Both the position numbers and the translations under genes were made by a program. From Rhodobacterales bacterium HKCCE2091 (GTDB lineage: Bacteria; Pseudomonadota; Alphaproteobacteria; Rhodobacterales; Rhodobacteraceae), in contig WVSL01000005.1 of assembly GCA_015689685.1 (NCBI GenBank), positions 1-64,000 of the forward strand: a stretch of DNA of 64,000 nt, given 5' to 3'. The notes beneath the pieces were generated by a model. It saw nothing but the letters and a program-made list of their open reading frames with translations, was not told the origin of the DNA and did not search any database. How positions within the stretch are numbered: position 1 is the stretch's first letter; every line of letters starts with the position of its first letter. Positions 24,861-27,729 of the stretch are shown here, in pieces.

Positions 24861-25364
24861 TCAGGCCGCCCGCAGGTTCTCGTCCAGCGTCGCCTTGAGC
24901 CGCAGGCGTTCGCCCGGGGTGAGAAACGCGCCGAGTTCGATCTCGCGCCCCGCGCCCGACAGCGTCAGGTAGTTCGGCACCGGGCCGCCGTTCTCGTGGA
25001 GCGAGACGCGGACCCAGTAGGGGTTCGCTTCCCAGTCGCGGGGCGGCTTGCGGGGGTCGTGACGCTCGATCCGCAGCCGGTCGTCCCAGAGCGTGACTTC
25101 CTCGTAGAGGTCCATGTCGCGCCAGGACCGCGTCAGCGCCCGCCAGATCGCCCAGAGCGCGGCGCAGACGAAGGGCAGTAGACCCCAGAAGATCGACGTC
25201 CCGAGCACCGAGAACAGCGGCATGAAGATCAGCGCAGCGGTCGTGCCGATGAACCAGACGAACCCTTCCGGCGTCAGCGACTTGTAGGGGGTGAGGATAA
25301 GGTGCAGGCGCGGCCCGTCGCGGTCCCCGGTCGCTGCGATTTCGCCCGCATCACGGATCGGCAT
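24861..25364 (-). CDS. DUF2244 membrane protein
   Basis: 167 residues. Two adjacent hydrophobic segments (about residues 36-76, GFVWFIGTTAALIFMPLFSV and GLLPFVCAALWAIWRAL) are followed by a soluble domain with EEVTLWDDRLRIERHDPRKP and NPYWVRVSLHENGGPVPNYL, matching DUF2244. The family often sits beside cytochrome oxidase genes. Here it is the third gene after ctaD and the CtaD-like mini-protein, with a near-perfect ribosome site formed by the end of that gene. Function unknown; oxidase assembly is inferred from context. Confidence 0.85.
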   Translation of the reverse strand: MPIRDAGEIAATGDRDGPRLHLILTPYKSLTPEGFVWFIGTTAALIFMPLFSVLGTSIFWGLLPFVCAALWAIWRALTRSWRDMDLYEEVTLWDDRLRIERHDPRKPPRDWEANPYWVRVSLHENGGPVPNYLTLSGAGREIELGAFLTPGERLRLKATLDENLRAA

Positions 25365-25365
25365 C

Positions 25366-25376
25366 GGATCACCTCC
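25366..25376 (-). promoter_or_regulatory. Extended Shine-Dalgarno site of DUF2244 gene
   Basis: GGAGGTGATCC on the minus strand, an 11-base match to the usual 16S rRNA tail complement, seven bases (from GGAGG) before the ATG at 25364. It contains the TGA stop of the upstream mini-CtaD gene, so termination and re-initiation happen at the same place. This predicts strong, coupled translation. Confidence 0.75.
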
Positions 25377-25842
25377 GTCCCGAAATGCGGCGGACGAGCG
25401 CGAGCACCACGGTCACCGCCAGCACCACCATACCCGCGGATGCCAGGACCCCGCCGATGGAGAACACGGTCGCCGCGGTCTCGAAGCTGTCGGCGTAGTC
25501 GGTGTACCGGCGGGGCATGTCCCCCCGGAACCACACGACTTGCTGTCCGGCGAAGGTGAGAACGCTGCCCGCGAGGAGCATCCAGAGCGCGGCGTGGCCC
25601 GCGATGGAAAGCCAGCGGTGACGGACCGGACGGACGAGCGCGTAGAACAGCGTCGCGGCGATGGCGAGGACGAAACCGGCGGTCAGTATGTAGTGGGTGT
25701 GCGCGACGACGTAGTAGGTGTCGTGAGTGGCGCGAACGGTGCTGTACCGGGATGTACCGATCCCGATGGCGGTTCCGAGGGCGACGAGGCCGCCCCCGGC
25801 AATGAGCAAGAGCCAATCATGCAGTCCGAAGCTTCGCTGCAT
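25369..25842 (-). CDS. Mini-CtaD: protein like the C-terminal helices of cytochrome oxidase subunit I
   Basis: 157 residues with four hydrophobic segments (about 10-30, 46-70, 80-103, 124-151). The middle matches subunit I helix X and following: [12 protein letters not shown] (residues 40-51) keeps the His/Asp pair of the Mg site and both haem-binding histidines (48 and 50). DMPRRYTDY (109-116) keeps the two arginines that hold haem propionates. The Cu(B) histidines and the helix II haem ligand are absent. It starts nine bases after ctaD and is coupled to the DUF2244 gene. It is not a frameshifted end of ctaD, because ctaD is complete beside it. A haem-handling or oxidase-assembly role is inferred. 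Confidence 0.75.
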   Translation of the reverse strand: MQRSFGLHDWLLLIAGGGLVALGTAIGIGTSRYSTVRATHDTYYVVAHTHYILTAGFVLAIAATLFYALVRPVRHRWLSIAGHAALWMLLAGSVLTFAGQQVVWFRGDMPRRYTDYADSFETAATVFSIGGVLASAGMVVLAVTVVLALVRRISGRR

Positions 25843-25851
25843 GGCCGCCCG

Positions 25852-27729
25852 TCAGTGGCTCGGATGCCTGTCCCACATCTCGCGCGTCGGAAGATCCTCG
25901 AAGGTGTGCTCCGGCGGCGGGTTCGGCAGGGTCCATTCCAGCGTGTCGGCATGTTCGCCCCAGTAGGCCGGCTGCGTCACGCGCTTGCCCGCGAACAGGG
26001 TGTAGAACACGATCCCGATGAAGAACACGAAGCTTATGAAGCTGAGGATCGCGCCCCAGGAACTGACCCAGTGCCAGAGGTGGAAGGCCTCGGGGTAGTC
26101 GATGTAGCGCCGCGGCATGCCCTGGCGGCCCAGGAAGTGCTGCGGGAAGAACGTCACGTTCACACCGATGAAGAACAGCCAGAAGTGCAGCTTGCCGGCC
26201 CATTCGGGATACTGGCGCCCGCTCATCTTGCCGATCCAGTAGTAGACCCCGGCGAAGATGCCGAAGACCGCACCGATGGACATGACGTAGTGGAAGTGCG
26301 CCACGACGTAGTAGGTGTCGTGGTAGGCCCGGTCCACGCCGGCCTGCGACAGGACGATGCCGGTCACGCCGCCGAAGGTGAACAGGAAGATGAAGCCGAT
26401 CGCGAACAGCATCGGCGTCTTGAACTCGATCGAGCCGCCCCACATCGTCGCGATCCACGAGAACACCTTCACGCCCGTGGGCACCGCGATGACCATCGTC
26501 GCGACCATGAAGTAGGCCTGCTGCGTCAGGGTCATGCCGGTGGTGTACATGTGGTGCGCCCAGACGACGAAGCCGAGGCCGCCGATCGCCACCAGCGCGT
26601 AGACCATCGGCAGGTAGCCGAAGATCGGCTTCTTCGAGAAGGTCGAGACCACGTGGCTGATGATGCCGAAGGCCGGCAGGATCACGATGTAGACCTCGGG
26701 GTGCCCGAAGAACCAGAAGATGTGCTGGAACAGGACCGGGTCGCCGCCGCCGGCGGCGTCGAAGAACGCGGTGCCGAAGTTGCGGTCGGTCAGGAGCATG
26801 GTGATCGCGCCCGCGAGAACCGGCAGCGACAGGAGCAGCAGCCACGCGGTCACGAACACCGACCACGCGAACAGCGGCACCTTGTGCAGGGTCATGCCCG
26901 GCGCGCGCATGTTGAGGAAGGTGGTGATGAAGTTGATCGAGCCGAGGATCGACGACGCACCCGAGACGTGGATGGCGAAGATCGCGAAGTCCACGGACAG
27001 GTCGCCCTGTGTGGATAGTGGCGCGTACAGTGTCCAGCCCGGACCGGCGCCGTTGCCCACGAAGACCGAGCAGAAGGCGAGCGCGGTGCCCGCGACGTAC
27101 ATCCAGTAGCTGAGGTTGTTCAGGCGCGGGAACGCCATGTCCGGCGCGCCGATCATCAACGGCATGAAGTAGTTGCCGAACCCGCCGAAGAGCGCGGGGA
27201 TGACCACGAAGAACATCATCAGGACGCCGTGACCCGTGATCATCACGTTCCACAGGTGCCCGTCAGGGTCGCCATCCAGCGTGTTCTTGAGCTCGGCGAG
27301 CGCCGAGAAGGCCTCGGGGCTGGGCGCGGCGGCCATCGCGGTGTCCAGCACGTCCACGGCCTCGGCCCTGGCGCGGCCCTCGATCACGATCTGGCCGGCG
27401 TCGTTTGCCGACAGCGCCGTCAGCGCCGACTGGAGCGACGACAGCTCCGATTCGGCGTATCCGCCGACCGCAGACAGTGCCTCGCCGGTATTGGCGAAGA
27501 GACCGTCGATGGTCTCGGTCGTGGCGGTGTAGGGGATGTACATGTACTGCGTGCCGGGCTCCATGAGCTCCAGCCGCATGTAGACCGTGAAAAGAACCGA
27601 GATCAGGCCCACCACACCGGCGGTGAACAGGTAGAGGATCCCGATGTCCTTGTGGTTGGTGGACATGAACCAGCGGGTGAAGAACCCGCGATCGTCGTGT
27701 CCGTGATCCGAGATGGCGGCGTCGGCCAT
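25852..27729 (-). CDS. ctaD: Cytochrome c oxidase subunit I (aa3-type)
   Basis: 625-residue core subunit that reduces oxygen and pumps protons in the inner membrane. It has HNGHLW-type [19 protein letters not shown] (haem a ligand His167), [13 protein letters not shown] (Cu(B) His and cross-linked Tyr), [10 protein letters not shown] (two Cu(B) His), and [16 protein letters not shown] with the remaining haem ligands. The D-channel region [20 protein letters not shown] is intact. It is longer than the usual ~550-560 residues because of an insert after helix I (about residues 62-155, Ala/Glu/Ser-rich). ATG at 27729 with GGGGAG upstream. First gene of a ctaD, mini-ctaD, DUF2244 unit. Confidence 0.97.

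Follow-up and report, generated by a model that had tools for sequence, protein, structure and literature searches.

An intact small gene next to ctaD in Rhodobacterales bacterium HKCCE2091 encodes a four-helix protein homologous to the end of cytochrome c oxidase subunit I, and sequence comparisons establish it as one of a mini-COX1 family of Rhodobacteraceae. Members have helices X-XII with the motifs [H]DTYYVV and PRRYxD, have no upstream catalytic helices, and are under purifying selection, as measured on relatives. The protein is neither an oxidase nor an essential factor, the latter because most relatives are without it. It is best read as a non-catalytic mimic of the outer-face haem-propionate and Mg site of subunit I, and it probably plays a role in oxidase biogenesis. 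The sequence-only reading that prompted this analysis knew of no described system of this kind, and none was found in the literature searched, which left out most subscription journals; within that literature, a mini-protein family derived from subunit I appears on sequence grounds to be previously undescribed.

Gene neighbourhood

The window, here meaning the whole stretch of 64,000 nucleotides analysed (contig WVSL01000005.1, positions 1 to 64,000), contains the small gene between ctaD and a DUF2244 gene (Table 1). A gap of 9 nt separates it from the end of ctaD, its stop codon lies 4 nt from the DUF2244 start codon, and no terminator or promoter was found in the window operon. As the sequence-only reading had claimed, the ctaD nine bases upstream is complete and the small gene is a separate gene. 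Because ctaD is complete and the same gene order occurs in relatives, a broken ctaD end or an assembly error is ruled out. Coupling to DUF2244 by a "shared stop" and a Shine-Dalgarno sequence had also been proposed. The Shine-Dalgarno sequence does cover the small gene's stop codon, but the wording was loose, as the stop is common to the Shine-Dalgarno sequence of DUF2244 and not to its reading frame.

Table 1. Features of the ctaD-DUF2244 region, in window coordinates
Feature	Position	Strand	Description
Small COX1-C-terminal-like gene	25369..25842	minus	ATG to TGA, 157 aa, ORF intact
Complete ctaD, cytochrome c oxidase subunit I	25852..27729	minus	625 aa; upstream, same operon; PF00115 E 4e-154
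DUF2244 gene	24861..25364	minus	Directly downstream; PF10003 E 1.1e-42
Shine-Dalgarno of DUF2244, GGAGGTGA	25369..25376	minus	Over the small gene's stop codon; sequence reading
ctaD segment homologous to the small protein	25972..26424	minus	Helices IX-XII, 36% identical; alignment
12-residue motif, residues 40-51	25690..25725	minus	Equivalents of H411 and D412 (Mg site), H419 (haem a3 ligand), H421 (haem a ligand)
DMPRRYTDY, residues 108-116	25495..25521	minus	Equivalents of haem-propionate arginines R481 and R482

Two further observations concern COX1-type sequences in this genome. The window ctaD has an insertion (27270-27560, minus strand), of 70-100 aa in the first periplasmic loop of CtaD, which is present in the window, its congener and the genus of G403 and is missing or much shorter wherever the CtaD N-terminus of another family member was available. 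Additionally, a further COX1-type match is located beyond the window, about 58 kb away (G000:C41:84379-84753; 28% identity, E 5e-9).

Homology and predicted fold

In a Pfam search, COX1 (PF00115) was the sole family matched by the small protein (E 2.2e-15; 56.9 bits against a gathering score of 34.8), which covers profile positions 309-435 of 436, the last quarter. Homology thus places it in the COX1 superfamily, as judged from sequence. Its score against TIGR02891, the CtaD equivalog, is 75.9 bits, below the curated cut-off of 670.75, and of the twelve helices required for a functional haem-copper oxidase subunit I its 157 aa provide only IX-XII. In phmmer searches of solved structures, the closest relatives were the subunits I of R. 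sphaeroides and P. denitrificans, with residues 19-148 aligning to 390-518 of the former (1m56, E 5e-17). Alignment to 1m56/6pw1 and to CtaD gives the R. sphaeroides equivalences H40=H411, D41=D412, H48=H419, H50=H421, R111=R481 and R112=R482. The helix X haem His pair, the Mg-site His/Asp and the propionate Arg pair are therefore all present in the window protein, and the Phe between the two haem histidines of CtaD is replaced by Thr. These results agree with the initial description of a four-helix protein from the end of subunit I that keeps haem ligands. The Cu(B) site and the helix II haem ligand, also described as lacking, are missing because the corresponding part of CtaD is absent.

Four transmembrane helices are predicted (7-31, 42-73, 76-105 and 119-154), and the AlphaFold2 model has four helices (mean pLDDT 84.8). 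The proposed overlay on helices IX-XII gave the anticipated outcome, with the model matching R. sphaeroides subunit I 372-526 at a VIA Z of 12.8, from an input alignment that contained CtaD rows. A Foldseek search with the model returned COX1 chains at TM 0.68-0.71, with no E below 0.001. Since its alignment makes the model not independent of homology, it confirms only that the sequence is compatible with the subunit I fold.

Comparison with known systems

The likeness to CtaD (PF00115, TIGR02891) helices IX-XII extends over the whole small protein and includes the Mg-site, haem His and propionate Arg residues and the predicted fold. In contrast to CtaD, the small protein lacks eight helices, the Cu(B) ligands, the helix II haem a ligand and parts of the D and K channels, has Phe420 replaced, and evolves several times faster. 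Similar in being a small multi-helix membrane protein found in oxidase gene neighbourhoods is CtaM (DUF420), a Firmicutes protein of four to five helices that acts in oxidase biogenesis, is needed for family A oxidases and is reportedly missing from P. denitrificans and R. sphaeroides (PMC9145763). The small protein differs from CtaM, with no match to Pfam DUF420 at E up to 1. Mitochondrial Cox1-c is likewise a stand-alone product of the cox1 3' end; it is a nuclear-encoded 3' fragment whose product, a soluble tail of about 25 aa with SPPPxH, completes a split subunit (PMC5664110), whereas here the full subunit also exists and the piece comprises four helices. The tail motif of the Cox1-c type occurs as NPPPEH in the window CtaD and is absent from the small protein, which is thus not a Cox1-c. 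Finally, styrene oxide isomerase also has four membrane helices and binds one haem via a single His at subunit contacts (PMC11374702); it has no sequence relation to the small protein, and the fold likeness is at the level of the helical bundle only. Given CtaM and styrene oxide isomerase, neither half of the idea of a one-haem protein in biogenesis is unprecedented.

Distribution and origin of the family

A direct protein search of about 150 Rhodobacteraceae genomes found nothing closer than ordinary CtaD, and the congener G001 was matched only through its CtaD. Plasmids and a GTDB scan yielded no close relative, the seven GTDB matches being full-length CtaD of other phyla. However, the window gene is not an orphan, as relatives were found by profile and pattern searches. 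When the DNA downstream of ctaD from about 130 family genomes was searched with a CtaD C-terminus profile, small four-helix ORFs appeared in G074 (E 9e-18), G104 (3e-9), G169, G001 and others, the window's own scoring 8e-26. A DNA pattern consisting of DTYYVV followed by a non-Phe codon revealed more copies among 395 family genomes, and searches within the genera of G403 and G325 recovered close orthologues. G027 and G152 also have four-helix ORFs at the corresponding place, but these lack the motifs and were not counted as members. Class-wide, all seven inspected loci matching DTYYVVAH-not-Phe proved to be full-length subunits I with AHIH.

The family is sporadic and fast-evolving, occurring in more than 12 genera of Rhodobacteraceae; its distribution is patchy, and in most family genomes the genes after ctaD are DUF2244 or others and the small gene is missing. 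Where it occurs, it is usually flanked by ctaD and DUF2244, and its junction with the latter is tight (TGATG in G074; TGACATG in G104 and G169); several members are away from ctaD (G788, G790, G792, G351). In the genus of G325, for instance, the gene is at ctaD in three species and elsewhere in three. The profile search suggested earlier, for conservation beside ctaD with invariant histidines, therefore gave a divided answer: many members adjoin ctaD, but some do not, and the histidines vary. Three copies are pseudogenes: G097 has an in-frame TAG within HDTYY, and G021 and G281 are frameshifted. Motif loss is seen in G001, G169 and G786.

Several variations on the usual form were observed. G403 and G776 each have a tandem pair, with an ATGA overlap between the copies; copy a keeps H411/H419 and both arginines, and copy b keeps H419/H421 and has H411 and R481 replaced. 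The haem/Mg-site residues of these pairs (L214 and L241 in G403, L240 in G776) are thus split between copies, as in complementary loss after duplication. The G790 form is longer, at 304 aa, and also keeps the motif GWTLYAP. Outside the ctaD locus, relatives of about 230-304 aa (L253:1027-3020, L252:404-2178) are followed by a 360-aa many-helix ORF without a Pfam match, a pair conserved in two species. Within the first 60 nt of the small gene, in codons 12-20 of seven relatives (L239, L238, L237, L241, L240, L040, L230), a perfect palindrome of 7-10 bp, GGCGCCCTC..GGGGGCGCC, encodes IGALxGGAY and is followed by a T-rich tail; the window lacks it. This palindrome in the first-helix coding sequence looks like a ctaD terminator or attenuator absorbed into the gene. 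Additionally, lineages outside the window's group have a T-run hairpin separating ctaD from the small gene (L139, computed; L086, L126, L036, L154 and L169, by eye), so that expression of the latter there would need read-through or a separate promoter.

In a tree of CtaD C-termini and 15 small proteins, a branch (98/100) separates the small proteins from all CtaDs, and none groups with its own CtaD. This arrangement suggests an old paralogue rather than repeated recent copies, and a single origin is likely, though not proven; the branches are very long. Recent tandem duplication is ruled out for the window gene, whose protein shares only 36% identity with the CtaD encoded beside it and lies apart from that CtaD in the tree. 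A search for a phage origin gave no PHROGs match.

Residue conservation and selection

Conservation was counted in 20 intact members. D412, Y415 and P480 are present in all 20, followed by Y483 and D485 (17/20 each), H411 and R482 (16/20 each) and R481 (14/20). The axial histidines H419 and H421 are each kept in 12 of the 20, and Phe420, the inter-haem residue invariant in CtaD, in none. Part of this sample was found by the pattern that requires DTYYVV and excludes Phe at 420, so that those columns are inflated; the loss of Phe420 is the same in the pattern-independent members (window, G778, G781, G783, G074, G104, G776, G789, G791, G788, G790 and G792). In eight members H419 is replaced by Y, V, N, R or T, and it differs even among close relatives (Y in G325/G789, H in G791); within the eight-sequence group that includes the window protein, it never varies. 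Both histidines and both arginines are kept in G778, G781, G788, G791 and G792. When the DTYYVV block is excluded, retention of the haem/Mg residues is 70-80%, compared with 29-35% in 57 other columns that are invariant in CtaD (permutation test, p = 0.003 in the window's group and 0.0008 in representatives). The conserved core is the outer-face D412-Y415/P480-R482-Y483 site rather than the axial ligands themselves, because intact members lose one or both histidines.

Selection was estimated as dN/dS (NG86 with codon bootstrap) in congeneric pairs. Values were 0.21 [0.10-0.37] for G325-G789, 0.28 [0.15-0.49] for G325-G791, 0.34 [0.21-0.51] for G778-G781 and 0.46 [0.30-0.68] for G788-G790; for the tandem copies they were 0.34 [0.22-0.50] (G403a-G776a) and 0.22 [0.11-0.33] (G403b-G776b). 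All 95% intervals lie below 1 in every pair measured. Purifying selection is weaker than on ctaD, for which comparable pairs gave 0 to 0.17. The family thus consists of genes that code for protein and are genuinely, though loosely, constrained. Since the window gene has no close relative, its case rests on intactness: in simulated neutral decay to 36% identity, 2-8% of copies were stop-free and fewer than 0.1% kept all six residues, which, with dN/dS coming from relatives only, suggests that this gene too is under selection.

The sequence-only reading had tied a relic of gene duplication to homologues without the two histidines, or to a single decayed copy. Many homologues are in fact under purifying selection, some with both histidines and both arginines, but others are intact with one or both histidines lost, and three are pseudogenes.

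Proposed function and alternatives

The conserved residues map to the outer face of subunit I, the region where the haem propionates come together with the Mg site and subunit II. Overall, we tentatively prefer, at somewhat less than an even chance, a selected family of mini-proteins derived from CtaD helices IX-XII and acting in oxidase biogenesis. Counted for this explanation were the homology, the ctaD/DUF2244 neighbourhood, the tight junctions, dN/dS, haem/Mg retention, the tree branch and the model match; counted against it were the labile axial His, the patchy distribution, the three broken copies, members away from ctaD and the long branches. The small protein would be made together with the oxidase and fold like the matching part of subunit I. 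It would offer an outer-face pocket (Mg-site His/Asp, propionate arginines and, in the window species, one or two helix X histidines) with no catalytic site. Its role might be to hold haem A, or to keep an assembly partner (subunit II or an insertion factor) occupied until CtaD takes its place. In the window species the protein could bind one haem; its histidines, and those of G778, G781, G788, G791 and G792, would allow this, and elsewhere only the outer-face site is left.

Rather less probable is a haem-free docking mimic, in which HDTYYVV and PRRYxD (and GWTLYAP in G790) copy the part of subunit I facing subunit II and the Mg site. The protein's partner would be subunit II, DUF2244 or a copper chaperone, which it would hold, and its histidines would simply be inherited. 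The near-universal outer-face residues (D412, Y415 and P480, then Y483 and R482) and the loss of both axial histidines in several constrained intact members fit this well, G790 being without either histidine and yet constrained with G788. However, H419 is invariant in the window's group, and H419, H421, H411, R481 and R482 are together kept well above other invariant columns. A one-haem "mini subunit I" is unlikely as a whole: in the window species and its nearest relatives, H419/H421 together with the propionate arginines would hold a haem A on its way from haem A synthase to CtaD, giving a dedicated handover template made from the oxidase's own sequence.

A decaying relic of partial ctaD duplication, with no present function, is more doubtful still, and for the family as a whole the data already speak against it. 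The patchy distribution, the very long branches, the pseudogenes and the motif losses would all be expected of it, but each congeneric pair measured is under purifying selection, tandem pairs are intact in two species, and the window ORF is intact at 36% identity with six site residues kept (p below 0.001 under neutral decay). Least probable is that the small protein senses gas or redox state through haem, or is an accessory subunit on the mature oxidase: there is precedent for a four-helix membrane protein that carries a single haem His where subunits meet (styrene oxide isomerase, PMC11374702, whose structure 8pnu is in the VIA list at Z 11.0) and the loss of Phe420 (0/20) fits one haem without haem-to-haem electron transfer, but there is no signalling domain or partner, the isomerase likeness is a common helical-bundle arrangement at 9% identity, and part of the Phe420 sample was chosen by the Phe-excluding pattern.

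Implications

The entry of haem A into subunit I is still poorly understood. A separately encoded natural copy of the part that holds the propionates and the helix X ligands would offer a small protein for direct tests of haem insertion or subunit docking. The family also shows that the haem-copper oxidase core can yield a reduced, non-catalytic paralogue that is kept by selection, in which constraint falls on the outer-face site and the axial ligands can vary freely.
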